This document shows, in pieces, positions 1,623 to 18,475 of a stretch of DNA of 20,401 nt. This stretch comes from a virus, in the IMG/VR virus record IMGVR_UViG_3300030329_004976, positions 1 to 20,401 of that record; one strand, given 5' to 3'. Made by a program: the position numbers and the translations under genes. Under the pieces are notes generated by a model, which made no database searches, was not told the origin of the DNA, and saw nothing but the letters and a program-made list of their open reading frames with translations. Position 1 is the first letter of the stretch, and every line of letters starts with the position of its first letter.

Positions 1623-1656
1623 AAAGGACTGCAATTTGTAGTCCTTTCTTTGTCTT
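1623..1656 (+). terminator. probable intrinsic terminator after the first early unit
   Basis: Positions 1623-1647 form an almost perfect hairpin. AAAGGACT pairs with AGTCCTTT, and three further inner pairs (one G-U) give about 11 bp closed by a three-base loop. It is followed by a T-rich run (CTTTGTCTT). It lies in a 98-nt gap downstream of a stop codon and just before the ribosome-binding site of the next gene, as expected for a terminator separating two units. The T run is interrupted, so termination may be partial. Confidence 0.55.
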
Positions 1657-1675
1657 ATCAAACCAAGGAGAATAA

Positions 1676-2422
1676 ATGAAACTGTTATACTTTGATTTGG
1701 AGCATGGCTCTAAAACATTAGGTGGCCCTAAAGATGTTGAAAAACTATTTGGCTACCCAATGTTAGAATCAGGTAGTTGGAAAGAATTTTCAACTACAAT
1801 AAAGCAATTGTATAAGCCTGTAAAAATAGTAGAAGAAGTTAAAATAGGCAATACAACTGTAAAGCAAGAAAAAACAGAGATAAAACCTGCCAATGAAACA
1901 GAAATATCAGGAATTGTAGTAGATACAGTTTCTGAATTATCTAAAAAATATCAAAGGTCTTTAACTCTTGAAGATGGTACTATGAAATTAAAGGAATGGG
2001 GTAAGCTAAAGAATAATCTAGATAAAATGCTAGATATGCTTACTAAAATTCCAGGCATTGTAATAATGAATTGTCATAGTAAAACACAACATATGGATGA
2101 TGGTACTACTAAACTTATACCATACATAGATGGATCAAGCAAAGAAGATATATCTAAATGGTTTGACTTTGTATTCTATACTAAAGCTGTTACAGACTTG
2201 AAAGGTAACAGTACTTTTATATGGAGAACACAAAGAACTGAAAGATATGATAATGCTAAAGACAGAACTCAATTATTAGATGCAGAAATACCACAAGATT
2301 ATCAACTAGTAATTGATGCTGTTAAGAAAAAAGGCTGGAAAGGTGCTAAAATATTAGTAATTGGATCACCTGGATCAGGTAAAACATATAGTTTAAAAAC
2401 AATAAGGAAGGGGACTAAGTGA
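1676..2422 (+). CDS. Sak4/AAA_24-like RecA-fold ATPase, apparently circularly permuted (248 aa)
   Basis: Likely a phage recombination ATPase of the Sak4 type (Pfam AAA_24 as I recall it), acting on ssDNA. The segments seen are, in order: KLLYFDLEHGSKTL at residues 2-15 (normally the strand just after the P-loop helix), GIVVDTVSEL at 79-88 (Walker B, Asp83), GIVIMNCHSKTQ at 127-138 (sensor strand with His134), WFDFVFYTK at 162-170, and finally KILVIGSPGSGKTYSLKTI at 225-243. The last holds an intact Walker A (230-237) only 11 residues from the C-terminus. In ordinary family members this element comes first. Joining the C-terminus to the N-terminus recreates the expected order almost seamlessly. 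AAGGAG at 1665-1670 sets the start. The stop overlaps the next gene's GTG (GTGA). The family call is from motifs; the permutation is inference from motif order. Confidence 0.8.
   Translation: MKLLYFDLEHGSKTLGGPKDVEKLFGYPMLESGSWKEFSTTIKQLYKPVKIVEEVKIGNTTVKQEKTEIKPANETEISGIVVDTVSELSKKYQRSLTLEDGTMKLKEWGKLKNNLDKMLDMLTKIPGIVIMNCHSKTQHMDDGTTKLIPYIDGSSKEDISKWFDFVFYTKAVTDLKGNSTFIWRTQRTERYDNAKDRTQLLDAEIPQDYQLVIDAVKKKGWKGAKILVIGSPGSGKTYSLKTIRKGTK
2404..2413 (+). promoter_or_regulatory. ribosome-binding site that supports a GTG start
   Basis: AAGGAAGGGG, five bases before the GTG at 2419, is a strong Shine-Dalgarno stretch. It lies inside the codons for the last residues of the upstream ATPase. It supports GTG as the real start of the ssDNA-binding protein gene. 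Confidence 0.6.
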
Positions 2423-2934
2423 AAACCTTAACTGTAAAGAAAACAACAGGAGTGTCGTTTGGGGAAGGATGGCACGAAGTAGTAATGACTAAAGCTTCAC
2501 CAGGAAAATATTCTGGAGGAGAAGGAACTAAATATTTAGATGTATTCTTTGATGGCTATCCTGATAGCTTGAAATTAAGAGTGCATGAAAAATATAATAA
2601 AGATACCAATGAAGAATTTGCTGTATTAAACTTATACAGATATTCTAATTCAGGTATAAAAGAAGTTCTTGAAGGTAGTGATGGTAGCATGACTATTGGA
2701 ATAGAAGATGAACCTGAAAACTTAATTGGAAATAAAGTGAATGTTTATTTCTACAAGAATAAAGAAGGCTATACTAATGTTTCAGAAATAATTGCTCCTT
2801 CAGTCTTTAAAAACGACTTAGAAGAATTTGATGAAGCTGGTGTAGAAAGAATGAAAACTTCTTGTGAAGAAAGAATCAAAAGATACCTCAATAATAGCCC
2901 TACCGAAAGTAGCACCCCAGATCCTTGGGATTAA
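2419..2934 (+). CDS. putative single-stranded DNA-binding protein (171 aa)
   Basis: The 171-residue product is beta-rich in its first 130 residues (alternating hydrophobic strands such as KYLDVFFDGY and KVNVYFYKNKEG). It ends with a Ser/Thr/Pro linker and an acidic, aromatic tail, PDPWD. That layout, a compact OB-like body with an acidic tip, is typical of phage ssDNA-binding proteins, which often sit directly after a Sak4-type ATPase as here. The start is GTG at 2419, overlapping the upstream stop by 4 nt. It probably coats ssDNA for the ATPase and primase-helicase. The assignment rests on architecture and context; no diagnostic motif was identified, so another small beta protein is possible. 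Confidence 0.6.
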   Translation: MKTLTVKKTTGVSFGEGWHEVVMTKASPGKYSGGEGTKYLDVFFDGYPDSLKLRVHEKYNKDTNEEFAVLNLYRYSNSGIKEVLEGSDGSMTIGIEDEPENLIGNKVNVYFYKNKEGYTNVSEIIAPSVFKNDLEEFDEAGVERMKTSCEERIKRYLNNSPTESSTPDPWD

Positions 2935-2949: not shown

Positions 2950-2977
2950 TAGGGGAAGGACAGCCATTCTTCCCCTA
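2950..2977 (+). other. intergenic hairpin before the primase-helicase gene
   Basis: TAGGGGAAG (2950-2958) and CTTCCCCTA (2969-2977) form a perfect 9-bp stem with a 10-nt loop. No T run follows, so a classic intrinsic terminator is unlikely. It sits 7 nt before the AAGGAG ribosome-binding site (2985-2990) of the primase-helicase gene. It could protect or process the mRNA, or adjust readthrough. Confidence 0.5.
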
Positions 2978-2995: not shown

Positions 2996-4750
2996 ATGAT
3001 AAAAGAGGTTGCATTTGGCATTGCTAACAGGCATCATTTCATGCCTGAAGATGATGTTATAAAATGGAAAGGCACAACAGATACATATGCAAGTCTATAT
3101 AACTATGATGATAATGTAATAAAATACTTTAAAGAAAAACAAACTTTAGCAGGATATAGTGGTAAGATATATATGCCTAAAGAATTTTTCTTTGATGTAG
3201 ATGGTGATAGTTCTGAAAGAGCAAGACAACTAACTATTGGACTATGTGAATACTTAAAAGAATTTGATATAATATATAGATTATACTTTTCTGGAACAGG
3301 ATTTCATGTAGGAGTAAGTCAAGGTATCTTTAAGTGGGAACCATCAAAAGAATTACATCTTAGAATGAAGGATTGTTTAACATCTAATGGTATATTTAAT
3401 TATGCTGATAGTGCTGTTGTAGATAAAACAAGAATTATAAGACTTGTTAATACAAGGAATAGTAAATCAGGATTATTTAAAATACCTATAACTGAATCTG
3501 AACTACATACTGATATAGAAACAATTAAAGAACTTGCAAAAAAGGTAAGGATTCCAGATTGGTATTTAATAGAGAATGAAGAAGAAACTCCTATATTTGA
3601 TATAACTAAAAGAGTAAAAGTAGCAGGTACTACTCCAGTTGTAACAAGTAGTAGAACAGGAGATTCATTTTATTATCCTTGTATACAAAAGATGCTAGAA
3701 GGCATTTCTTATGGTTCAAGACATAATGTTTCATTAAGAATAGCAGCTTGGCTTAAAGACAGATATCCAGAACATGTCGTAAGAGTAGTTATGGAAGACT
3801 TCAGGCAAAGAGTTGACATGCCAGACAAACCATTTCCAAAAAAGGAAATGGACACAATAGTTGAAAATTGCTATACAGGTCACAATGGTAAAGGCTATAG
3901 ATATGGATGTAGTGATTCAGTAATGGATCATTTCTGTAATTCTAGCTGTACTTTATATGGATCAAAGAAAAGTCAAAAAGCAATAACAGCAGAAACAATG
4001 GAAGATTTGTTGCTTGATTTTATTGATTCTAAAGTAGAGCCTGTAAATATTGGAGCATTATATGGGGAAGATTTTCCTATATATCCAGGAGAAGTACTTG
4101 TCATACAGGCACCACCAAAGTCAATGAAAACTATGTTAATACAAAACTGGCTATGTGCTTTAAAGAAGCCAACATATTTCTTGGAACTTGAAATGAGCTC
4201 AAGACAAATATTTATGAGGTTTCTACAAATAAAAACAGGCATGAGTGAAGAAGAAATAATGACTTACTATAAAGGTAAGAAAAATGGTCTTCACAAAGGC
4301 TTTGAATGGCTTACTTTTGATACTAACAATTGCCATCCATTTGAAATAGAAAAAAGAGTATCAGTCTTAGCACAAAAACCTGAAATAGTAGTAGTAGACC
4401 ATATGGGACTACTTGCAACTAATCATAAAGATGCTAACATGAAAATGGAAGAAATATCTGAAGGATTAAGAAACCTAGCTATTAGGCAAAATGTAGTAGT
4501 AATAACTGTATCTGAAATAAGTAAAGGTGCTATAAGGGAAGGAACAGAAAACTCTATAGTAGCATCTAGAGGTAGCTTTAGAATAGCTTACTCAGCCAAT
4601 AAGATACTTTCATTACATGCTGATAGAGATAAAATGGATAAAAACAGAATCAAAAGACTAAGAATACAAACAGTTGCTAATAGAGAAAAAGAGCAGTTGA
4701 ATGTAAACTTAAGGCTTGATGGATTAAATATAGTAAAGGAAGGATACTAA
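2996..4750 (+). CDS. PrimPol (AEP primase) fused to SF4/DnaB-like helicase (584 aa)
   Basis: A bifunctional replication protein that would synthesise primers and unwind DNA at the phage fork. The N-terminal half carries archaeo-eukaryotic primase motifs: FFFDVDGD with metal-binding Asp67 and Asp69, FSGTGFHVGV with His104, and Asp143 in a VVDKTRIIRLVNTRNS segment. A Cys/His cluster at about 305-318 (C305, H312, C314, C318) may bind zinc. The C-terminal half is a RecA-fold helicase: Walker A-like APPKSMKT (372-379), the LELEMSS strand (about 396-402), Walker B EIVVVDHMG with Asp468, and a VVVITVSE strand. The Walker A lacks both usual glycines. AAGGAG at 2985-2990 fixes the start, and the stop overlaps the next ATG (TAATG). 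No separate polymerase is in the window. Confidence 0.88.
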   Translation: MIKEVAFGIANRHHFMPEDDVIKWKGTTDTYASLYNYDDNVIKYFKEKQTLAGYSGKIYMPKEFFFDVDGDSSERARQLTIGLCEYLKEFDIIYRLYFSGTGFHVGVSQGIFKWEPSKELHLRMKDCLTSNGIFNYADSAVVDKTRIIRLVNTRNSKSGLFKIPITESELHTDIETIKELAKKVRIPDWYLIENEEETPIFDITKRVKVAGTTPVVTSSRTGDSFYYPCIQKMLEGISYGSRHNVSLRIAAWLKDRYPEHVVRVVMEDFRQRVDMPDKPFPKKEMDTIVENCYTGHNGKGYRYGCSDSVMDHFCNSSCTLYGSKKSQKAITAETMEDLLLDFIDSKVEPVNIGALYGEDFPIYPGEVLVIQAPPKSMKTMLIQNWLCALKKPTYFLELEMSSRQIFMRFLQIKTGMSEEEIMTYYKGKKNGLHKGFEWLTFDTNNCHPFEIEKRVSVLAQKPEIVVVDHMGLLATNHKDANMKMEEISEGLRNLAIRQNVVVITVSEISKGAIREGTENSIVASRGSFRIAYSANKILSLHADRDKMDKNRIKRLRIQTVANREKEQLNVNLRLDGLNIVKEGY

Positions 4751-5241
4751 TGTCAGAAAAAAGAAGTTTCATTGATATAACAACTGATATTGTAATGGCT
4801 AAAGATGACTTTAGCCTTACTGATCAAGAGATAAAAGAAAAACTAGCTGGTCTGTATACTGAACTTGCTAGAAAAGAAGATGGTGTTTATTGGTTTTATA
4901 AAAAGTTAGACAAGGATATTGAGCTTGCTAAAGAATATAGACAGAAAATAGATAATGAAATAAAGAAAAGACAAACAGCTCAAAAGAACCTAAAAGAGCT
5001 TGTAATTGAAGCCAATACAACTGTTGATAAATTACCTAAATATTCTGATTTTAATCCAATAAAGATATTAGAATCAGCATCAGTAAATGTTATTGATGAA
5101 TCTATAATACCACAAGAATATTGGGTAGAACATAGAGCAGTTAAATTAGACAAGAAGAACCTACTTATTGATCTTAAGAAAGGAAAGAAGATTGATGGAG
5201 TAGAATTAAAGAAGAACCCTTATGTGAAAGGATTAAAATAA
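4750..5241 (+). CDS. Gp157-like phage protein (163 aa)
   Basis: The product resembles the Siphovirus Gp157 family. It has a helical, charged N-terminal region (about residues 20-90) containing LDKDIELAKEYRQKID, followed by a conserved small C-terminal domain in which a PQEYWV turn leads to LLIDLKKGKKIDGVEL and ends near KNPYVKG. The roughly 160-residue length fits the family. Early work on a Streptococcus phage linked Gp157 to phage resistance, but the biochemical role is unknown; its usual place among recombination genes suggests a DNA-metabolism accessory. It overlaps the helicase stop and the next start by one base each (TAATG), so it is probably co-translated with both. Confidence 0.75.
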   Translation: MSEKRSFIDITTDIVMAKDDFSLTDQEIKEKLAGLYTELARKEDGVYWFYKKLDKDIELAKEYRQKIDNEIKKRQTAQKNLKELVIEANTTVDKLPKYSDFNPIKILESASVNVIDESIIPQEYWVEHRAVKLDKKNLLIDLKKGKKIDGVELKKNPYVKGLK

Positions 5242-6083
5242 TGAAAGAAATTAGCAACCCATTTGCAGAAATAAAAAAGGTGCCTCTATTTGGAGACACT
5301 TTACAATCATCAGCCTATTCAGTTCATTTAAAAGATGAATTAAATTATGAAAAACCTTGGAATGAAGTAGGTATAGTAAGTAAAGACTATATGTTAGTAA
5401 ACAATAAAGAAATTACTGATATGGTAGAAAATATCATTGATCATTCTGATGTAGACTTTGCTTTAGATAAAACATTCTTTAATGGAAAGCAATTCATGAG
5501 ATGTTACAAAGCAACTGAAGAAATAGATGCTGAGGTTAAAGTAGGAGATAACTTAGGCATAGGAGTAATGGTAAGCAACAGCTATGATGGATCAACTTCT
5601 GGAAGATTTTCTATCTTTGCATATAGATTGTTATGCAAGAATGGAATGATGTCTAAAAGGATGTTCCAAAGCTATCGTTTTAAACATACTCATGAAAACA
5701 GCAATTGGGCTGAAGAAATGGAATCTGCAGCAGAAATAATTAAACATGCAGGAACTAATGTTAAGGAATTTGCTACAATATGTGGTAAATTAACTACAGA
5801 TTCTATTGATATTAATGATATGGGTAAAATCAGAAATAAGTATATACCTAAATTACCTGTATCAACTTTTGGCAAAGTAGTAGATCAAATATATAATGAT
5901 GAGTATTATAGTGACGACTTAGATATAACATCTTGGGACTTACTTAATGCTGGAACACATGTTCTTTGGCATAAAGAAAAACAAACTGTAGCTGATTTTA
6001 ATAATAATGATTATATCACTACTGGTTTCTTAAATTATGCTAAAACATTAAATGTTCCTACAGAGCCAATAGCAATGTATTAA
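5241..6083 (+). CDS. DUF932-like phage/plasmid protein (280 aa)
   Basis: The 280-residue product matches my memory of the DUF932 (phage/plasmid-like, TIGR03299-type) family. It has an early VSKDYMLVNNKEI segment (about residues 46-58), a FMRCYKA strand, then SNSYDGSTSGRFSIFAYRL (about 113-131) followed by CKNGMM, and a helical C-terminal half. Members occur in phages and plasmids, often near recombination genes; their activity is not established. The start overlaps the upstream stop by one base. The gene is followed by a 128-nt structured gap, so it probably closes the core replication unit. Confidence 0.75.
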   Translation: MKEISNPFAEIKKVPLFGDTLQSSAYSVHLKDELNYEKPWNEVGIVSKDYMLVNNKEITDMVENIIDHSDVDFALDKTFFNGKQFMRCYKATEEIDAEVKVGDNLGIGVMVSNSYDGSTSGRFSIFAYRLLCKNGMMSKRMFQSYRFKHTHENSNWAEEMESAAEIIKHAGTNVKEFATICGKLTTDSIDINDMGKIRNKYIPKLPVSTFGKVVDQIYNDEYYSDDLDITSWDLLNAGTHVLWHKEKQTVADFNNNDYITTGFLNYAKTLNVPTEPIAMY

Positions 6084-7854: not shown

Positions 7855-7993
7855 TTTAGAAATGAAAGAGTTTAAATACAGTCTTTCTAAGTTAACCAAC
7901 CCTTATATAAAAGAAGAAGCTAAAGCTAATGTCTTTGACTCAATAGAAAAGAAACTTGTGAAGAGGAGTAAAAGAATAAAGTTTAAGGATTAA
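7826..7993 (+). CDS. small basic hypothetical protein (55 aa) at the convergent junction
   Basis: A frame overlapping the end of the nuclease gene runs to TAA at 7991-7993. AAGGAA (7815-7820) is well placed for the ATG at 7826; a preceding ATG at 7823 is in frame but too close to the site. The 55-residue product is helical, with a Lys/Arg-rich end (KKLVKRSKRIKFKD). No family is recognised. It is the last plus-strand gene, and its stop overlaps the stop of the opposing giant gene within the sequence TTAA. Confidence 0.5.
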   Translation: MTDMEWKMINLEMKEFKYSLSKLTNPYIKEEAKANVFDSIEKKLVKRSKRIKFKD

Positions 7994-10900
7994 GGAAGAA
8001 ATTCCCTACCTACAGTTTCTACACCATGTACAATGGGTGGAGGGGCAGGTATAAATGGTGCTACCAATTTGCTTGCCCTTCTAATGTTTTCTTTTTCTTC
8101 AACATCTGAAGCTAAACCTAACAACCAAAACATTAAATCACTACTATACCCAAAACCATAGCCTAAAAATGGTATCTTTCTTATTTTGTAGAATATATTT
8201 CTTTGTATATCTTCCTCATCCTCATCTCCAAGTGCAGCCATAATTAAATAAATAGGTAAGCTTGTTGTTAAAGATATAAGATCAGAACTTAAGCCAGACA
8301 TTATCTTAGTAGGAAGAAATCTTCTTAAACCTATAGACAAAAATGGCCCAAACAAAACTAAATCCATAATCAATGTCAAGGGACCCTGTAACAAAACAAA
8401 ATTCCTGAGCCTAGCTATATCAGGATTCTTTTCCCAAGCCTTGCTGCCATCCTTAAGAGATTTCCCCAATTCTAACATAGTATTGCCTATAGCACTACCA
8501 TCTTTAATTTTCATAGACCTATAAGCATCTCTAAATAATCTAACATCATAACCAAACCTTTGTTGTGACCATATAGTAAACTTGGTCATAATGCCACCAC
8601 CAAGTCTTGACAACTCACCAGTATCTTGATTAGATAAACCAAAGTCTAATACTCTAGTATATTCTCTTCCAACCTCTAAAGCTTTAACCGTATCATCTTT
8701 TAATCTTTGAAGTTCAGATCCTTGAAGCTTTTCTCTTCTTCTTAATAAGTTCCAAAAGTCTTTACTAATAACACCTGCATTAATAGCTAAATCTACACCT
8801 ATAACAAAACTATGTGTTCTAAGTTCTTTTTCTGTACCACTCATAGTTAATAATTCTTTTAAATTGCCACTATAAAGAGCTTTATTAAATGTTTCAAATC
8901 CTTGACTAGATAATTCTATTAATCTTCTAAGCCCTACTTTACTAACATTTTGCATAGGATATGCTACATAGTCCTTTGTAATGGCCCAATTAGCCCATCT
9001 ATCTACTACTTTCTTAACTTTCTTCTCCCTTAATGATCTAAGCCTTGCTTTAATTACAGGATCAACCTCTGCATTTATATCTTTATCTAATTTTTTAATA
9101 CCAGGAATATATTTAGCTCTAATTTTAGCTTCTTTTTCAAATTTCTTAATAGCATCTTTAGGTTTCATACCAGCTTTTATATCAGCATAATATTGAAACA
9201 TTGCTTTAGTTATTTTCATAGATTCTTCAAGAGAAATATTATCTCTTTGACTTAAATCTTGAACTAAACCCTTACTAAAGAAATCACCAAAATCAAGTAT
9301 ACCAGACTTTAAAACTAACGACTCAATAGCTGGTCCCAATGCTTTTTGATCAATTTTTGCCTGTGCTTCTCTATACCTTTTCCAACCAACATGAATAATT
9401 TTTTGTACAGTAGCTGTCTTATTTAATATAGCTGTAGACATTCTACCTAAATATCTAGCTGTAATACCAGCACTTAAAGTCCTTACATACCTATCAAGCT
9501 TATATTCATCTACTTCAAAAGGTAGCTTTTTAATAAAACCTTTATATATCTTATTTAAACTTAAATCAACACCAAACACACTAGCTCTTGCCTCTGGCTT
9601 ATGCAAGACTGTATCATATAAACCAAATATATAATCTTTAATTAAATTATTTTTACCCTCAAACTTAGGATCAGCTGTTCTGACTGATGTAATAACCTTT
9701 CTTGCAAGTTGAGCTCTTTCTAATGTAGAAAACATATTTCTTAAATAATCATAATAAACTGACTGATCATCTCTCATATTTCTAATATCAATAGAATTGG
9801 TAATATGCTTTAAACTTTTAGCATCACGACTACTATGAACCTTTCTACCATAAACAGGATCTTCAGCTGCTTCATCTAATCTATCTCTAGTAACCTCTAA
9901 TCTTAATTTATTAGTCTCTTCTCTTTCAATTTCTTCAGCTAAAACTTTTTGCTCCAATGGGCTACCAAGATTAAATTTATCTCTAAGTTGATCAAGCCTA
10001 TCACTCACTTCTCTTAATAATTTATCATAATGGAATCTTAACATTTCATCTTGATATATAACAGGCCAACTATCTGGGTTCTCTTGTAAATTAACTGTAC
10101 CAGTAAAAAAGGGATTTAATACTGTAGATTTGCCAAACTTTTCATATAGAAACTTTCCTCTTTCTCTATCTTCTTCTTTAGAAATAACATACTTTCCATT
10201 TTTTTTCTTATTAAAATTACCTGTTAAAAATGCATCTATTATTTCTTTCCTTTTTAATTGTTTAATCCATAATCCAAGCTCAAGTCTTAAATCTTGTTCA
10301 ACTTTTTTAAACTCAAGCACTATATATTTAAATACTTTTTTATGTATACTTCTGGCTTTCTTAGATAAATCTACTATTTCTTGTATTTCTGCTTTGCTTA
10401 ATTTATCTTTTAAAATTAATTCCCTAGCTTCAATAACAAATCTAACTTCTGGATCAATAGTATTGCCTTCTTTTAATTGTTCTCTTTGTGTCTTATTTAA
10501 ATGCTTTCCTTTGACATATTCAGATAAAGGTATTAATTTTTGAAAAGAATAAGCTGGACTACCAGTTGAAGCATAAGTCCATAATCCATTAGCTTTATCA
10601 AATATATATGCAGCCTTACCTGTTTCTTTATCCTTAACACCTAGATACCTAGGATCATTAGGATCTTTAACAAATCCATGTTTAGCATTTATCTTTATAA
10701 TACCATCTTCAATTTTCATCCAACCATTCATAACTCTATTAAATATTCTAGTAATCTTCATCTTTTCCATATCATCATCTCTAAGAGCATCTAGCTGTTC
10801 ATATACCCATTCCATTCTTTGTCTTGTTTTATCACCCATAAACTTTGTTATATGCCTATTAACTTCAGATACAAAAGACTCCACTGCTTTAACTGCCAAA

Positions 10901-11523
10901 GCAAGAGCACCAGTCTTTTCTTTCCACCTCATGTTTCTTGGAGTAGATAAACTAATCATGACATTACCATAAACACCTGTAAAGTTTTTATTAGTACTAC
11001 TTATTTGTCCATATAATTGTTGATAAGTTTTAGATAAAATACTAGGATTAATAAAATTTAATTTAAGATTACCATTAATATTGGTACTTGATTCTCCTTT
11101 TTCGCCATACTTTCTTAACCTGCTTTTTATATTAGAACCAGTTATACCAGCTAATGCTATCTCTCCCATAGCATCTTTATTTCCAACATAAGTATTTAAT
11201 AATGTTCTGTTTCCACCAAATAAAGCATGCATTTTAAATATTATCTTAGCTGTTTCTCTTTCTTCTTTTGTTTTAAATAATTGATTTATTTTTCCTGCAA
11301 CAGAAACTCCTTTATCAAACAACTGATCTATAACCTTTTCATCTACAACTTCTTTGTCAAATTTCTTTTTTAAATAACCAGATATAGTATTGAACTTCTT
11401 GCGAACATGACTACTAATAGGGAAGTTATCATCTATTAATTCATTAATTTCAAAGGTACTTTTTTTATCAGCACTTACAGTTTCTTTGATATTGTCTTTA
11501 ACTGCTTTACAAGCTTTAATCAC
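7990..11523 (-). CDS. giant virion-associated protein with hydrophobic C-terminal region (1177 aa)
   Basis: The last gene of the minus operon. An in-frame ATG lies further upstream at 11544, but the GTG at 11523 is preferred because AGGAGG lies four bases before it. It overlaps the upstream stop by 8 nt. Residues 1-1000 are mostly charged, helical and Lys/Arg-rich with no enzymatic motif I can name. The C-terminal part has three hydrophobic stretches at about 1047-1066, 1075-1098 and 1117-1141, the second followed by an acidic GDEDEED. It ends with a Pro-rich tail. Length, operon position beside an RNA polymerase-bearing giant and possible membrane segments suggest a virion protein injected with the DNA, perhaps forming part of an ejection conduit. 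This is inference; no close family is recalled. Confidence 0.6.
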   Translation of the reverse strand: MIKACKAVKDNIKETVSADKKSTFEINELIDDNFPISSHVRKKFNTISGYLKKKFDKEVVDEKVIDQLFDKGVSVAGKINQLFKTKEERETAKIIFKMHALFGGNRTLLNTYVGNKDAMGEIALAGITGSNIKSRLRKYGEKGESSTNINGNLKLNFINPSILSKTYQQLYGQISSTNKNFTGVYGNVMISLSTPRNMRWKEKTGALALAVKAVESFVSEVNRHITKFMGDKTRQRMEWVYEQLDALRDDDMEKMKITRIFNRVMNGWMKIEDGIIKINAKHGFVKDPNDPRYLGVKDKETGKAAYIFDKANGLWTYASTGSPAYSFQKLIPLSEYVKGKHLNKTQREQLKEGNTIDPEVRFVIEARELILKDKLSKAEIQEIVDLSKKARSIHKKVFKYIVLEFKKVEQDLRLELGLWIKQLKRKEIIDAFLTGNFNKKKNGKYVISKEEDRERGKFLYEKFGKSTVLNPFFTGTVNLQENPDSWPVIYQDEMLRFHYDKLLREVSDRLDQLRDKFNLGSPLEQKVLAEEIEREETNKLRLEVTRDRLDEAAEDPVYGRKVHSSRDAKSLKHITNSIDIRNMRDDQSVYYDYLRNMFSTLERAQLARKVITSVRTADPKFEGKNNLIKDYIFGLYDTVLHKPEARASVFGVDLSLNKIYKGFIKKLPFEVDEYKLDRYVRTLSAGITARYLGRMSTAILNKTATVQKIIHVGWKRYREAQAKIDQKALGPAIESLVLKSGILDFGDFFSKGLVQDLSQRDNISLEESMKITKAMFQYYADIKAGMKPKDAIKKFEKEAKIRAKYIPGIKKLDKDINAEVDPVIKARLRSLREKKVKKVVDRWANWAITKDYVAYPMQNVSKVGLRRLIELSSQGFETFNKALYSGNLKELLTMSGTEKELRTHSFVIGVDLAINAGVISKDFWNLLRRREKLQGSELQRLKDDTVKALEVGREYTRVLDFGLSNQDTGELSRLGGGIMTKFTIWSQQRFGYDVRLFRDAYRSMKIKDGSAIGNTMLELGKSLKDGSKAWEKNPDIARLRNFVLLQGPLTLIMDLVLFGPFLSIGLRRFLPTKIMSGLSSDLISLTTSLPIYLIMAALGDEDEEDIQRNIFYKIRKIPFLGYGFGYSSDLMFWLLGLASDVEEKENIRRASKLVAPFIPAPPPIVHGVETVGREFLP

Positions 11524-14500
11524 AATTCCTCCTCTTAGCTTCATTCAAGCTAACATCACTTGCTTCCTGTGCTGTAGGCTCACCTCTCAAATACTTAGTA
11601 TTTTCTTTGTAATATTGATTAACAGACTTATGCAAATATGCATGAGGAGGTAATAAATCTAAATTACTATTTTTAATTTCTTTAAGCATAATTAAAGTTA
11701 CAATCTCTTGACCTTCTATACTTTTATCTTTTAATGGTTCTAATTGTTCAATTATTATATTAACTAAGTCAGGATTGGTTTGCCAACTATTGGGTTGAAG
11801 AGGTCTTCTATTTTTTGCTTCCGATGTCATAGCTGTTTCTGAATCTTTTAAAATACTTCTGGCAAATGATTGAGCTGCATTAAACTTAGTATTACCTATT
11901 TTGTTCCTTAAAATTTCTAATTTAGAATTAATATCCATATTTTCTTTAGCTTGCATATGTGCTGCTTCATAAGTAGTTTGATCAAATCTTAACGGAGACT
12001 TTCTGGAATCAGAACCTTGAGGACCAGATTCAACATATTTATCAAACATTTCATATACTTTAGTAACAGCTTTTTCTAATAAACCTACATTATTATTCCA
12101 TGTAACCGTAACATTATAAGGATGTCCATCTTTCATTATTGCTTTAGTATTGGGTAAAGTCTTATTCAATCTGGCATTTACAAATCTAGCATAATTTTGA
12201 CTATCATTTATAATGCCTTCTACAGAATTATTATCTCCACCAACAGTATTTAAATTCCTTATATTGGAAGCTATTTTATATCTCTTCCAAATTACTTCAT
12301 TAAAAGCTGTCCATACATCATTAGTAATCCATCCTGAATCACTTTCAACATCAAATGCATCTAATGTTAAGCCAGCTTTAGTTTTAAATAATTTTTTTCT
12401 AAAATCTGTAACATTGTAATTCCAATCTTTTAACAGTAAGAACTTAGGATTATCTACAGCTGCTTGCAGATAGATTCTTAATACCTTATCTGCGGTACCT
12501 TTAACACCATTTCCCATATCAATAATACCTGTATTAGGAACTATTATCTCAGTATCATTATTTTTAGTAACAATAGTGGCACTAATCATACTATTTCTAA
12601 TTAGACCAAATATCAACGATGATGATGCAATCTCTCCTATGGCAGTATTAGAATAAACCATAGCTTCAATCATTTGAGACCTGTCAGAAGGATGCAATGG
12701 ATTAAATTTATTTCTTTTGCCTATATATTTCTTTAAATCAACTCCTTCTATACTGTCTGTAAATTCTTTAGACTGAAAATAATCTTTTAATTTTTCATTC
12801 ATATTATCTGGCATAGACATTATATATAAAGCATCTCCATCATAATCACCCTCATATCCCAAGAAAGTGGTATCTCTATGTATCTGAACAGTTCCATTAA
12901 CATTAGTTAATCTCTTTATTCTTAAATAATTTACACCACCTGCATAAGCTATAGGACTTCTATATGCTAAAACTCTTATATCATTCTTATCTAACCATTT
13001 ATTGATTTGTTTAAATGTAGGCTTGCCTGTTATGTTTGTATCTTTTCTAAACTTAGTCATTAATTGTCTATTACTTGTTATAGCTTTCATATCAACAGCC
13101 AATTCATCAACCTTTAAATCTCTTGCATAATTAGGTGCAAAATAAAGAGGTATACCCATTTGCTCACCTAAATTAACAGCAGGATCTAATATCTTTCCTC
13201 TTGTAGTAATTTCTAACCTACCTGCATCTCTAGGTATTAAACCACCACTAGCCATTATATCATTATATAAATCAGTATCAAAATCTTCTTTAAACTTTGA
13301 TTTTAATTTATCAGCTAATATTTTAATCTTTTCTGGACTTCTTGTAGCCATCATTAAAGTCCTTAGTATTTGATCTGCCCTACTATTTGGACCAGTAAAA
13401 GCTTCTATTAAATCTGCAATTAAATCCATATCTGTTATATAATTCATCCATTGCAAAGGAAACTTAACAGTATTCTTCTTCCCTACAGACATCTTAATTA
13501 AACCAAATGCACTGCCTGGAATAGTAAATTCAACAGTTCTTTCTTTTCCTTCTGGATCTTTAGAATCAACATATCCTGTTCCATCTTCTTTAATATGACC
13601 ACTAGCCATCTTTCTTTCATCACCTGTCATAATCATATCAATAATATTACCTTTGGGATCTCTTATGTTACCATCAGAATCAACTTCTCCAACTAAAGTA
13701 TTATTATTCCATATTTTAAGACCAGCCTCTGGAACACTGTGCTGATGTTTAAGCATTAACATATTAACATCATTTAAAGGTATTATATTGCCTTTATCAT
13801 CTAAATAAGGATCAACATCATAAACAACACTTTTAAGCCATCCTATAGCCCTATCAATACCATATGCTTTAGCTACAGACCTTACATACCTTCTACTTGT
13901 AATAGTATTGCCATCACCTTCATAAGTATTTTTTAATGGTCCAATATTTTCCGTACCATTATGCTTTGGTCCATCACCTACTGAAAACTGTATTCTGCTT
14001 GCAGGTATATATCTAGCTTCCCCATCAGGAACTTTTTTATTTGTAAAAGCAGGAGTTAAAGGAACTTTCATTCTTTTCAATACATCGGCAAAGTCTCTAT
14101 TAACCCAGCCTGGAACAAAGCTATTTATATAATCAAATGCAGCAATAGCTCTTGCTCTTGCAATTATATCATATTGTGTATCTTTCTTTTTCCAGCTTAA
14201 ATAAATCTCTTTCTGTTTTTTGTTTATATACCCACCTGCTTCAGCTTGTGTCCAAAATTTATCCCAAAGTTTACTATCTTTAGATATATCAAAATGCTTA
14301 CCTTGAACTATACCTGTTGCTATTTTAGCTGAATCACCCCTACTAAATAAAAATACAAACGGATCAACAACTCCACCAACTTTTACATTTTCTAAAGCTC
14401 TTACTTCTTCAGAATTTAAAAACTTATAACTTTTTCTAGATTTAAACTTATAATCAGGATGAAGCATATAATAAGCATCTTTTTCAATTGTTTCAATTTG

Positions 14501-17500
14501 ATTAAACATTTTATTTGTAACAAAATACATTTGTCTTAATAAGGCAGATAAATGAGGTTTTGAATGGGCTATAAGATTTGTATCATATTGACTTTGTTGT
14601 TTAACAATGCCCATGCTATAATCACTCTTAAAAACTCTTTCTTCTGGACCAACTAATTTAATTTTGTATATAAACTCTTTCTTCTGTCCATTCCACTGCT
14701 TGTCAAAACGGATATAATTTATAGCATTACCAGCTCCAGCTTCTTGATTAACTAATATTCTGTTATGTAAAAATGTATGTAATTGAGCTGCAGCATCATT
14801 TTGAGCTTGATTTAATTGCTTTATATCTTTCTTTTTAAATGCTAATAAACTAGCTAAATCTTCTCTATACCATTCATCAAAATCTTTTGCATTAGCTGCA
14901 TCATATAATTTATTTCTTTCTGCAACAGTTATTTTGAAATCACCAAGCAATGTTAATGACCTGTCAATACCTCTTTGAACATTTTCTCTTGCATCAACTT
15001 CAGCCTCGCTGACAGCTATTTCATTATCTGTAACATTGTCAACCAAATATCTTGTTTTGTATGCTATTGCTTCTATAGATTCTGTATCTCCAACAAGCTT
15101 AACATGCTTACTAATAAATGATTCACCATCAGCTGTTTGACCTATATTAGCTACACCATTAAATGTTTCATCTTTATGTTGAGACATCCAATTATAAAAT
15201 AGCGGTATCCAATTCTTCTTTTCTTTTTCAAATCTATTAAGAACTTGATCAATAAATATTATAGGCTTAAATACTGTATCTGATGATTTATTGAACTTTC
15301 TAACTTGAGATTCAATATCATTCATCATAGTATTAAACTTCTGCTGAATAACAGCTTGTTCTTTTTTAGAAGGCTTTTTAATTTCTTGATATTCAACTTT
15401 ATTATTTTTAATAGTATATAAATCAGATTCTTTCATTTTAAAACTATAAAACTTCTCTGAAATTAAATCACCAAGTTCCTTATCAGTTAAAGCCATGCCA
15501 AAAAAGTTCTTTAAGGCATTAGTCCATTTTCTAAGCCAGGTTTTCAACCTGGAAACTAAACCTTTGTCTTGTATTTTACCTGCATAGTAATCACCTATAT
15601 ACTGAACTAAATTTTCTTCACCACCAAATCTTTTTAAACCTTCCTTTATAACAGGATGATTTCCCATAATCTTTATATAGATATGACCATACTCATGAGG
15701 AATGGTATCTAATGTTCCTTGTGTAGTAGACCATTCAACTATATTTTTAAAAGCTCTACCAGCTACTTCCTGACCTTCTTCATTAAATACTTTTTCTATT
15801 GCTTTAGCTTTTACAAAAGGAAATTGTTTCTTAAGTTTAGATGCAAGCTTATTAGCAACCTCTTTATTATCTTTAATTTTAGCTTTATCAGTTTTATCAA
15901 CTTGTTGAAAATCAATATCTTTATAACCTTCAGGCAATGGGGTCAAATCTTTATCTATTGCTTTGTCAACTTCTTTTTTAATAACTTCATCAGCTGATTC
16001 AAAAAGCTCAGCTTGTTTATACTCTCCTTTAATTGGTGAAATAATCTTATCTGGATCAGCTTTTTCTCCTGGTTTATTAACTATAGTATAACCTGCCTTA
16101 ACTAAAGCATTTATAGGAACATCAAAAACTGGCTTAGGCTCTATTTTCTTTCCATCTTTATCAGTCCATTGAGTAAGATCATACATTTGATATAAATCGC
16201 CTTCTTCAAAATCTTCTTTAGATATAATATCTTCTATGCTAGATACTCCTTCTTCAGCAAAGCTTAAGATATCTTTATTCATTTCTTTCACCATTTCACC
16301 ACTCACAGACTTAACCTTGTCTATTTCATATGTCACACCATCAGATACAAACATAGCCCCCTTAAATGGTCTTTCTCCTTTTTTTACTCCCCATGTTTTT
16401 TCAAATTTCCTATCATATGTTTTTTCAGTATCTTTAATTTCCTCATAACCTTTACCATCTTTTTTAGCCTTAAAAGCTACTGCTTCTCCAGCCTCTCCAA
16501 CATATGTTAGACCTAATCTTTTACGCCTTGTCTGTTCTGATTTTATCATTTTTAATGTTTCTAAGCTTCCCTTGTCTCCAGTCCTTTGATAAAATTTTTC
16601 AGGAGTTTCATTATCTTTTTGACCTCTTTCTACAGCATTAGCCTCGAATTGACTACGCTTCTGTTTTAAAAACTCATCACTAACAGTATCTATATCTAAA
16701 GACTTGCCAAATTTCTCTCCATCTTTTATTTCAAATACCTTATCAGTAAGTACAACAATCTCAGCTTTACCACCTTTAGCCCAATATTCTCCTGGATACT
16801 TAAAATCATCATCAATTTTTACATCATCTTTCTCTTGTTTGATCTTAGCCTCTTTAGCCATTTGATCAAGAGTTAGCTCTTCAGCTTTAACTTTTTCTGC
16901 TTCTTCAACTACACTTATATCAGCCTCAGCTTGTGCTATAGATTTTGCCTCTAAATATTCTTCTTGAGCTTGAGCTTCAGCACTTGCTTCTATTTCAGCT
17001 TGATTTATTTCATTTAAAACCTTTTCTAGATTTTGTATTTTTTCATCTGATATCTGTACATCATTTTTAATATTTGAAATAGAATTGATAAAATCTGTTC
17101 TATCTATATTGTTTTCTTCAAATGCTGCAGTTCCGTTTTCAACTACATAATCTATAGAATCTTCAATCCTATTTTTAAGTGCATTGCCACCTGCCTCTTG
17201 AGCATCAATTTTCGCATCTAATAATACCTGCTTTTCATCTGTAGTTATTCCTTCATCACCATAAGTAATTTGAGCTAAATTAACACCTCTTTTGCTTCTT
17301 GTTGGAACACCTGTAGGAGTTTCAAGACCAGATGTATCATCACTTATATTGTCATCTAATTGCTTGTCTTTGAAGTTGTCAAGCATCCTCCTGCTAAATG
17401 TAGAAGTACTAGCACCTACACCACCCATAAGTAATGTACCAGATAATGCTGACCAATAACTCTCTACAGTTTCAGGAGCAAAAGCTGAATGTTTAAAATC

Positions 17501-18475
17501 TTCTATAAAATTATCAAAAGCTTGATCAACATCCCCATCATACTTTTTATAAACATTTTGAACTAATTCTTGATTGATACTTTGAGTACCTTCGGTAAGA
17601 CCTTCAACTACAGCATTAGTTAAAACATCTCCAGTCTTGTTTAGAAATCTATTATCTGTTAACTTGTCTACCATTTTAGTAGTAAGCATTTTTTTAGCAT
17701 CTTTTCCAGCCATTCCAGACAATTTAGCTAATCTATTAATGCCATAGTATTCTAATAAACCATTGCCAATACCAACAGCTACAGCGGCATTAGCAGCTGT
17801 ATCAACTGCTTCATTAGGCTTTACACCTTTTTCTTCTACAAGATACCTCATGGCTTCATTATATTCACCAGAACCCTCTAAAGCACCCATAGACATCATT
17901 GATCCAGCTTGAGTTCCATATTTCAACATTTTAGCACCTGCACCCACAGCTTTTAAACCAACACTAACACCACCTGCACCCATCATCATAGTAGCTATTG
18001 ATGGAGCTAAATCAGAAACACCTCTAAGCATCATATCAAAATGCCAAAAATTCTTTAAACTAATAGGTTTATCTTTCTGCCATTCTAAATAACCTTGAAT
18101 ACCAGGATCATTTTCTATCCATTCATTCTGCTTATCTTGACCCCACTTTCTTAATTTTTCTGAAAAACCAAGAACAGTTTCTCTTGCTTCGCTATCTTCT
18201 TGAAGAATTTTAGTAGTCATACCTACTGCAGCAGCAGGAATTTCAACACCCATAGATTTAAAATTATACCAAGCTTTATTTATATGATCTCCAATGCTAG
18301 GATCATATTCTTTGACTTTGGGAGTATTATCAACTACTTTATTATAAACAGGATAGTCTTGTAACCATTTTTGAGTAAGCTTGTCATCTGTCCAATGATC
18401 ATACTGGTTGGGATGTTTTTTTCTAATAAGACCTGCAAACTCTTCTTGACTATAGAGTTGATTATTATCAGGCAT
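11516..18475 (-). CDS. giant protein with zincin-like metallopeptidase and DxDGD RNA polymerase domains (2319 aa)
   Basis: Likely a virion-packaged RNA polymerase. In order: an N-terminal region with small hydrophobic residues (about 150-400), an Ala/Glu-rich helical stretch (about 480-545), then DTIPHEYGHIYIK with HEYGH at 927-931, a zinc-peptidase HExxH. Near the C-terminus lie YRSPIAYAGG (Arg1839), GDYDGDAL with DYDGD at 1877-1881 (metal-binding Asp1877, Asp1879, Asp1881), SNTAIGEIA at about 1942-1950, and LQAAVDNPKF around Asp2008. This order resembles the catalytic half of beta-prime-like double-psi barrel polymerases, as in crAss-like phage enzymes. It would transcribe early genes after injection. 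The start follows the upstream stop by 3 nt with a weak GGAAAT site. The second barrel was not located by eye. Whether the peptidase cleaves the polypeptide itself is unknown. Confidence 0.8.
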   Translation of the reverse strand: MPDNNQLYSQEEFAGLIRKKHPNQYDHWTDDKLTQKWLQDYPVYNKVVDNTPKVKEYDPSIGDHINKAWYNFKSMGVEIPAAAVGMTTKILQEDSEARETVLGFSEKLRKWGQDKQNEWIENDPGIQGYLEWQKDKPISLKNFWHFDMMLRGVSDLAPSIATMMMGAGGVSVGLKAVGAGAKMLKYGTQAGSMMSMGALEGSGEYNEAMRYLVEEKGVKPNEAVDTAANAAVAVGIGNGLLEYYGINRLAKLSGMAGKDAKKMLTTKMVDKLTDNRFLNKTGDVLTNAVVEGLTEGTQSINQELVQNVYKKYDGDVDQAFDNFIEDFKHSAFAPETVESYWSALSGTLLMGGVGASTSTFSRRMLDNFKDKQLDDNISDDTSGLETPTGVPTRSKRGVNLAQITYGDEGITTDEKQVLLDAKIDAQEAGGNALKNRIEDSIDYVVENGTAAFEENNIDRTDFINSISNIKNDVQISDEKIQNLEKVLNEINQAEIEASAEAQAQEEYLEAKSIAQAEADISVVEEAEKVKAEELTLDQMAKEAKIKQEKDDVKIDDDFKYPGEYWAKGGKAEIVVLTDKVFEIKDGEKFGKSLDIDTVSDEFLKQKRSQFEANAVERGQKDNETPEKFYQRTGDKGSLETLKMIKSEQTRRKRLGLTYVGEAGEAVAFKAKKDGKGYEEIKDTEKTYDRKFEKTWGVKKGERPFKGAMFVSDGVTYEIDKVKSVSGEMVKEMNKDILSFAEEGVSSIEDIISKEDFEEGDLYQMYDLTQWTDKDGKKIEPKPVFDVPINALVKAGYTIVNKPGEKADPDKIISPIKGEYKQAELFESADEVIKKEVDKAIDKDLTPLPEGYKDIDFQQVDKTDKAKIKDNKEVANKLASKLKKQFPFVKAKAIEKVFNEEGQEVAGRAFKNIVEWSTTQGTLDTIPHEYGHIYIKIMGNHPVIKEGLKRFGGEENLVQYIGDYYAGKIQDKGLVSRLKTWLRKWTNALKNFFGMALTDKELGDLISEKFYSFKMKESDLYTIKNNKVEYQEIKKPSKKEQAVIQQKFNTMMNDIESQVRKFNKSSDTVFKPIIFIDQVLNRFEKEKKNWIPLFYNWMSQHKDETFNGVANIGQTADGESFISKHVKLVGDTESIEAIAYKTRYLVDNVTDNEIAVSEAEVDARENVQRGIDRSLTLLGDFKITVAERNKLYDAANAKDFDEWYREDLASLLAFKKKDIKQLNQAQNDAAAQLHTFLHNRILVNQEAGAGNAINYIRFDKQWNGQKKEFIYKIKLVGPEERVFKSDYSMGIVKQQSQYDTNLIAHSKPHLSALLRQMYFVTNKMFNQIETIEKDAYYMLHPDYKFKSRKSYKFLNSEEVRALENVKVGGVVDPFVFLFSRGDSAKIATGIVQGKHFDISKDSKLWDKFWTQAEAGGYINKKQKEIYLSWKKKDTQYDIIARARAIAAFDYINSFVPGWVNRDFADVLKRMKVPLTPAFTNKKVPDGEARYIPASRIQFSVGDGPKHNGTENIGPLKNTYEGDGNTITSRRYVRSVAKAYGIDRAIGWLKSVVYDVDPYLDDKGNIIPLNDVNMLMLKHQHSVPEAGLKIWNNNTLVGEVDSDGNIRDPKGNIIDMIMTGDERKMASGHIKEDGTGYVDSKDPEGKERTVEFTIPGSAFGLIKMSVGKKNTVKFPLQWMNYITDMDLIADLIEAFTGPNSRADQILRTLMMATRSPEKIKILADKLKSKFKEDFDTDLYNDIMASGGLIPRDAGRLEITTRGKILDPAVNLGEQMGIPLYFAPNYARDLKVDELAVDMKAITSNRQLMTKFRKDTNITGKPTFKQINKWLDKNDIRVLAYRSPIAYAGGVNYLRIKRLTNVNGTVQIHRDTTFLGYEGDYDGDALYIMSMPDNMNEKLKDYFQSKEFTDSIEGVDLKKYIGKRNKFNPLHPSDRSQMIEAMVYSNTAIGEIASSSLIFGLIRNSMISATIVTKNNDTEIIVPNTGIIDMGNGVKGTADKVLRIYLQAAVDNPKFLLLKDWNYNVTDFRKKLFKTKAGLTLDAFDVESDSGWITNDVWTAFNEVIWKRYKIASNIRNLNTVGGDNNSVEGIINDSQNYARFVNARLNKTLPNTKAIMKDGHPYNVTVTWNNNVGLLEKAVTKVYEMFDKYVESGPQGSDSRKSPLRFDQTTYEAAHMQAKENMDINSKLEILRNKIGNTKFNAAQSFARSILKDSETAMTSEAKNRRPLQPNSWQTNPDLVNIIIEQLEPLKDKSIEGQEIVTLIMLKEIKNSNLDLLPPHAYLHKSVNQYYKENTKYLRGEPTAQEASDVSLNEAKRRNCD
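11528..11533 (-). promoter_or_regulatory. AGGAGG ribosome-binding site that fixes a GTG start
   Basis: CCTCCT on the plus strand reads AGGAGG on the minus strand, four bases before a GTG (11523-11521). It lies inside the last codons of the upstream giant gene. It favours the GTG over the in-frame ATG at 11544. Confidence 0.65.

Follow-up and report, generated by a model that had tools for sequence, protein, structure and literature searches.

Among described proteins, the closest to the one analyzed here are the Sak4 proteins (PHROG 124), represented by HkaL of phage HK620 and by the Sak4 proteins of coliphage CAjan and Streptomyces phage Hiyaa. They are small RecA-core ATPases with a Walker A motif, an acidic beta-2 strand, a Walker B motif, a sensor, and a C-terminal helix. 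The HK620 Sak4 binds single-stranded DNA (ssDNA) and is an ATP-dependent annealase that does not carry out strand exchange; it is stimulated by the neighboring single-strand DNA-binding protein (SSB), whose last six residues are required, and up to 80% of sak4 genes adjoin an ssb gene (PMC5928155). We analyzed a 20,401-nucleotide stretch of viral DNA (IMG/VR record IMGVR_UViG_3300030329_004976, positions 1 to 20,401; hereafter, the window) encoding a protein that has all of these elements and, like ordinary Sak4, is small and has an SSB-like gene next to its own. In ordinary Sak4, the P-loop is N-terminal, whereas in the window protein it is C-terminal and beta-2 is the first strand.

RecA, Rad51, and UvsX have the core fold that is predicted for the window protein and, presumably, the same catalytic residues; however, their order is natural, whereas the window protein is permuted, lacks additional DNA-binding domains at either end, and would not be expected to perform strand exchange. 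YjeQ/RsgA, YlqF/RbgA, and YqeH are circularly permuted GTPases, P-loop NTPases with a rotated motif order that set the precedent for such a rearrangement. These are TRAFAC GTPases of ribosome assembly, whereas the window protein is of the ASCE/RecA type, belongs to a phage recombination module, and is cut just after the P-loop helix. To our knowledge, natural circular permutation in P-loop NTPases is textbook material for one GTPase group only. In the open-licence literature, we found no paper that joins Sak4 with circular permutation, and a wider search there for permuted RecA-type ATPases returned permuted methylases and GTPases only; subscription papers and preprints lay outside this scope, so a prior description is possible.

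Motif order and expression signals of the window sak4 gene

The sak4 reading frame extends from an ATG at 1676 to a TGA at 2420-2422 and encodes 248 amino acids (Table 1). A preliminary description of this DNA had reported the motif order as beta-2, Walker B, sensor, and, last, Walker A; the coordinates, the reading frame, and the motifs confirm that order, with the Walker A sequence GSPGSGKT at residues 230-237. Across 41 diverse sequences of the family, the invariant positions include D7, E9, D83, T84, H134, G235, K236, and T237. In the candidate loop that would correspond to RecA loop L2, PYIDGS-[ST]-K is conserved, and the confidence of the structural model (pLDDT) is about 70 at residues 151-160.

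The start of the gene is credible, since AAGGAG lies 5 bases upstream of the ATG, a hairpin precedes it, and in several relatives an in-frame stop directly abuts the ATG. An AGGAG-type site is also present 5' of the gene in the relatives inspected. The upstream hairpin has an extended stem of 18 bp (-20.8 kcal/mol, z -4.9) and a T-rich tail, and its right arm, GTCCTTTCT, is also found 5' of the gene in close relatives. At the other end of the gene, the ribosome-binding site of the next gene had been proposed to lie inside the C-terminal codons of sak4, and this was borne out (AAGGAAGGGG). A second, strong hairpin separates ssb from the primase-helicase gene and may delimit the sak4-ssb unit.

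Table 1. Features of the sak4-ssb region (positions are those of the window)
Feature	Position	Strand	Basis or remark
Terminator-like hairpin, AAAGGACTGCAATTTGTAGTCCTTT and CTTTGTCTT	1623..1647	+	Just 5' of sak4; folding, relatives
Shine-Dalgarno sequence AAGGAG of permuted sak4	1665..1670	+	5 bases before ATG
Circularly permuted Sak4-like ATPase gene	1676..2422	+	248 aa; profile matches and homologue conservation
New N terminus, strand beta-2 KLLYFDLEHG (residues 2-11)	1679..1708	+	D7, E9 invariant
Walker B strand GIVVDT (residues 79-84)	1910..1927	+	D83, T84 invariant
Sensor strand IVIMNCH (residues 128-134)	2057..2077	+	H134 invariant
Candidate ssDNA-binding loop, putative counterpart of RecA loop L2 (residues 136-158)	2081..2149	+	Function inferred
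Old C-terminal helix QDYQLVIDAVKKKG (residues 207-220)	2294..2335	+	Aligns with last helix of ordinary Sak4 (in CAjan, PHLGSVINKMKG)
Junction joining old C and N termini, WKG (residues 221-223)	2336..2344	+	Joint alignment
Old N terminus in its new C-terminal place: strand beta-1 AKILVI with Walker A GSPGSGKT (residues 224-237)	2345..2386	+	Profiles, model, alignment
P-loop helix and new C terminus YSLKTIRKGTK (residues 238-248)	2387..2419	+	Translation, model
Ribosome-binding site of next gene, AAGGAAGGGG	2404..2413	+	Within final sak4 codons
Likely single-strand DNA-binding protein, 171 aa, tail TPDPWD	2419..2934	+	GTG start overlaps sak4 stop by 4 bases
Hairpin 3' of ssb, stem around AGGGGAAG/CTTCCCCT	2950..2977	+	About -18.5 kcal/mol for the stretch; GC-rich, without T run

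Profile, database, and model evidence for a rotation

In its natural order, the window protein matches the AAA_24 profile (PF13479) in two swapped pieces: residues 2-197 fall on profile positions 24-194 (67.7 bits), and the isolated 28-residue C terminus matches positions 2-22. Following in silico rotation, in which the last 28 or 42 residues were moved to the front, the protein matched AAA_24 over its full length and above the cut-off, in one stretch covering positions 2-194 of 195 (84.6 or 84.5 bits, respectively), whereas four control rotations scored 67.7 to 73.4 bits. The best PHROG for the protein is PHROG 124, "Sak4-like ssDNA annealing protein," which is likewise matched in swapped pieces that merge into a single match upon rotation; here, the score rose from 71.6 bits (E value, 1.5e-19) in natural order to 92.8 bits (5.4e-26) upon rotation, while the control rotations gave about 74 bits. 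The proposal that joining the C terminus to the N terminus restores a normal order therefore holds, given that rotation produces one full-length profile match and the controls fail to do so. In seven related IMG/VR contigs of 48 to 62 kb, the same open reading frame matches AAA_24 from about position 22/24 to 195 and then from 2 to 24, and nowhere else do these contigs score above the AAA_24 cut-off. Since the two pieces tile AAA_24 in the window and in these seven relatives, and since 97 of 98 homologues have the same order, a chance origin of the motif order is excluded. Among the Pfam and NCBIfam matches of the window protein, AAA_24 is the best family and no GTPase family is present.

We compared natural and rotated queries by tblastn in 50,697 phage records. 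The natural-order query had no match at an E value of ≤1e-3, whereas the rotated query matched 169 records at an E value of ≤1, 40 of them covering at least 80% of the query. Because the E limits of the paired searches differ, coverage rather than the number of matches is the fair comparison; with a family consensus as the query, 80% coverage was reached by none of the 88 phage matches in natural order but by 49 of the 55 in rotated order. The rotated query aligns collinearly with ordinary phage Sak4 and with RecA-like recombinases; identity to ordinary Sak4 after rotation is only about 22 to 28%, and the best-characterized member, that of HK620, aligns poorly. A PDB sequence search with the permuted-family alignment found no relatives. 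In a separate scan, a profile of the permuted family was run against rotations of five ordinary Sak4 proteins, with the best local piece scored; this proved uninformative, since HMMER breaks its alignment in the variable region that follows beta-2, and the curated profiles were used instead.

An AlphaFold2 model built from 41 natural sequences (pLDDT 90.5, pTM 0.88) forms one domain that includes the C-terminal P-loop; it supersedes an earlier run with 8 sequences, in which pLDDT was 72 and the P-loop end was poorly placed. By block, pLDDT is 94 to 95 across residues 211-240 and 68 across residues 241-248. The preliminary description had raised the possibility that the P-loop lies outside the RecA core, and the model speaks against this, with a confidence of about 94 at the P-loop and a pTM of 0.88. 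The core model and the rotated profile cover the 248 residues, so that the protein consists of the core only. In a Foldseek search of BFVD, A0A516LUR7, a 248-residue viral homologue that is 48% identical, matched end to end with a TM score of 0.92, providing an independent model. Further BFVD matches were phage proteins annotated as AAA and RecA-like recombinases, mostly at TM scores of 0.5 to 0.66 in this order-dependent comparison. A permuted chain is penalized by Foldseek, because the comparison runs in chain order; in that order, a search against the PDB gave no significant RecA match. Taken together, the profiles, the database search, the conserved order, and the model support the assignment of the window protein as a circularly permuted Sak4/AAA_24 RecA-like core.

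Chain ends, conservation, and descent

The helix DYQLVIDAVKKKG had been described as a linker that bridges the old termini. This did not hold up, as ordinary Sak4 proteins have a C-terminal helix with which residues 207-220 align. When rotated members were aligned jointly with eight ordinary Sak4 proteins, the CAjan C-terminal segment RSGRLDAVEVPHLGSVINKMKGIN corresponds to RTQLLDAEIPQDYQLVIDAVKKKG; the helix-to-helix correspondence is a reading of two chain ends and is supported by the PHROG 124 match, which reaches position 259 through the helix. On the strength of this alignment, the helix is ancestral, and the old ends are joined with almost no linker, about three residues leading to AKILVIG. 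The cut falls in the loop that leads from the P-loop helix to beta-2 in the ordinary order. Because the acidic residue of beta-2 is catalytic by what is known of RecA (Glu96, whose counterpart we take to be Glu9 here), the permutation would open the chain inside the ATP site.

Scans of IMG/VR yielded about 155 to 160 loci of the permuted family. Relatives were to be checked for the position of the P-loop, and among 98 distinct homologues from the fetched loci, with identity down to about 38 to 47%, it is C-terminal in 97 and N-terminal in none. Ninety-six of these sequences are strictly permuted, L014 is permuted and truncated at the contig start, and L121 is frameshifted before the P-loop. 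In L121 (80-804), the frame shifts immediately ahead of the old C-terminal helix, so that the P-loop is lost in that frame, through either a sequencing error or a broken gene. An additional N-terminal P-loop in homologues, another possibility raised at the outset, was looked for and not found, and the in-frame upstream extension held no P-loop in any of the 82 sequences checked. Given the C-terminal P-loop in 97 of the 98 homologues, we class the window protein as a permuted variant rather than as an ordinary Sak4. The frameshifted L121 illustrates that sequence errors do occur, and an assembly artefact, a contig-end wrap, or a frameshift might likewise have misplaced the P-loop, as the preliminary description had considered. 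This explanation is in practice refuted and retains a vanishingly small probability: the same order recurs across about 160 loci in many separate contigs, at identities from 98% to about 38 to 47%, and the gene lies well inside the contig with its frame uninterrupted through the junction.

The permuted sak4 gene is under strong purifying selection. In comparisons with close relatives by the Nei-Gojobori method, dN/dS was about 0.04 to 0.09 (dS, about 0.75 to 0.8; dN, 0.03 to 0.06), and the 23 C-terminal codons carried 1 to 4 amino acid changes versus 7 silent ones. These data bear on the idea that the C-terminal P-loop is vestigial or coincidental and that the protein, as an AAA_24 relative lacking a genuine P-loop, does not bind ATP in the usual way. 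The P-loop is indeed no more than about 20 residues from the C terminus, and the end of the following helix is modeled less confidently (residues 241-248). We nonetheless regard this idea as very improbable, since Walker A is retained in 97 of the 98 distinct homologues, the C-terminal piece supplies precisely the AAA_24 positions (2-22) that the N-terminal piece misses, and the P-loop end shows few amino acid changes despite many silent ones.

In a small tree, all of the permuted sequences lie together to one side of a branch supported at 99/97, while long branches leave the exact sister group unsure; this topology is consistent with a single permutation event. Unpermuted or duplicated intermediates were sought in viral contigs with increasingly divergent members, and permuted forms only were recovered; a scan led by the divergent copy L138 alone found nothing. 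Bacterial and archaeal species genomes gave a single match, L138:2402-3175, in a Flavobacteriaceae MAG contig. This copy is permuted and divergent (42%), and an SSB-like gene comes next to it on the contig, which is small; the match may point to a host among the Bacteroidota or reflect stray binning.

The SSB-like neighbor and probable function

Of the 43 records examined, among them the window and L138, 42 have a gene of one family directly 3' of sak4 (for two of the 42, the gene caller chose a shortened start). A P[FWI] pair (PF, PW, or PI) occurs within the last six residues of 31 of the 42 tails; the HK620 SSB ends in PPF. Relatives of this gene match PHROG SSB families at 1.5e-5 and 2.4e-4, with at most 3 of 30 members matching at 0.01, and none of the 30 reaches Pfam. 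Profile comparison by hhalign was not significant with either the HK620 SSB (2.6% probability) or CAjan gp50, and a PDB sequence search with the SSB-like alignment found no relatives. The gene after sak4 is likely an SSB, an assignment that is weak by sequence.

The genes 3' of ssb encode a primase-DnaB fusion, a Gp157/Gam-like protein, a DUF932 protein, an HNH nuclease, and a PDDEXK/RusA-like nuclease and constitute a replication-recombination region. Within it, the Gp157/Mu Gam-like gene (4750-5241) is directly followed by the DUF932 gene (5241-6083), and this pair may be connected with the protection of DNA ends. Farther along, the minus strand encodes two very large proteins, one of 1184 aa (7990-11544) and one of 2319 aa (11516-18475), with L176 counterparts of 1269 and 2167 aa; they are possibly internal virion or ejection proteins. 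In IMGVR_UViG_3300029319_000094 (L004/L176-L178; 48,095 b), the large structural-type genes are on the opposite strand, and the primase-helicase gene is split between the two contig ends, with query residues 1-333 in one part and 334-584 in the other. Since this gene spans the contig ends, the record probably represents the whole genome of a close relative, assembled as a circle.

The sak4 gene directly precedes the SSB-like gene, with the primase-DnaB fusion gene two genes downstream, and its Sak4 membership is based on the ATPase core alone, AAA_24 being a broad family. It is thus conceivable that the permutation is real and that the protein is a RecA-core ATPase with another replication job, such as loading or regulation of the primase-helicase or remodelling of SSB. 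We consider this distinctly unlikely, since the best PHROG is an ssDNA annealing family and pairing of sak4 with ssb, seen for up to 80% of sak4 genes, is typical of annealases (PMC5928155). The window protein is a Sak4 by ancestry and probably also by function.

The explanation that we favor, and hold to be quite likely, is that the window encodes an active, SSB-recruited, ATP-dependent annealing protein of the Sak4 type with a RecA core, permuted once in an ancestor of this phage clade. In that single event, the old C-terminal helix would have been fused to the old strand beta-1 and the chain reopened in the loop separating the P-loop helix from beta-2, leaving the fold unchanged. The site for ATP binding and hydrolysis would then be assembled from both chain ends, with Lys236 and Thr237 contributed by the C terminus, Glu9 by the N terminus, and Asp83 from between them. 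The protein probably binds ssDNA coated by the SSB of the next gene, probably through recruitment by the SSB C-terminal tail, and complementary strands would probably be annealed during phage replication and recombination. By analogy, the window sak4-ssb pair most likely works like the HK620 pair. It is possible, if doubtful, that the permutation is itself functional, with both chain ends at the ATP site and nucleotide binding coupled to subunit contacts or to the cotranslated SSB; direct coupling of this kind, unmatched by ordinary Sak4, could arise because the P-loop helix and the catalytic strand are at free chain ends by the ATP site.

The permuted Sak4 belongs to a family of uncultured tailed phages, in which the rotation is real and has been selectively kept in about a hundred relatives. 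It adds a second case of a permuted P-loop NTPase, in a recombinase of the RecA/ASCE branch, and indicates that the fold tolerates opening of the chain at the ATP site. Profile annotation hides such permutations, as PHROG and Pfam report "Sak4" or "AAA domain" and the swapped order is not displayed. The family may provide a new annealase for recombineering, and it offers a test, provided by nature, of the connections within the chain that RecA-type allostery requires.
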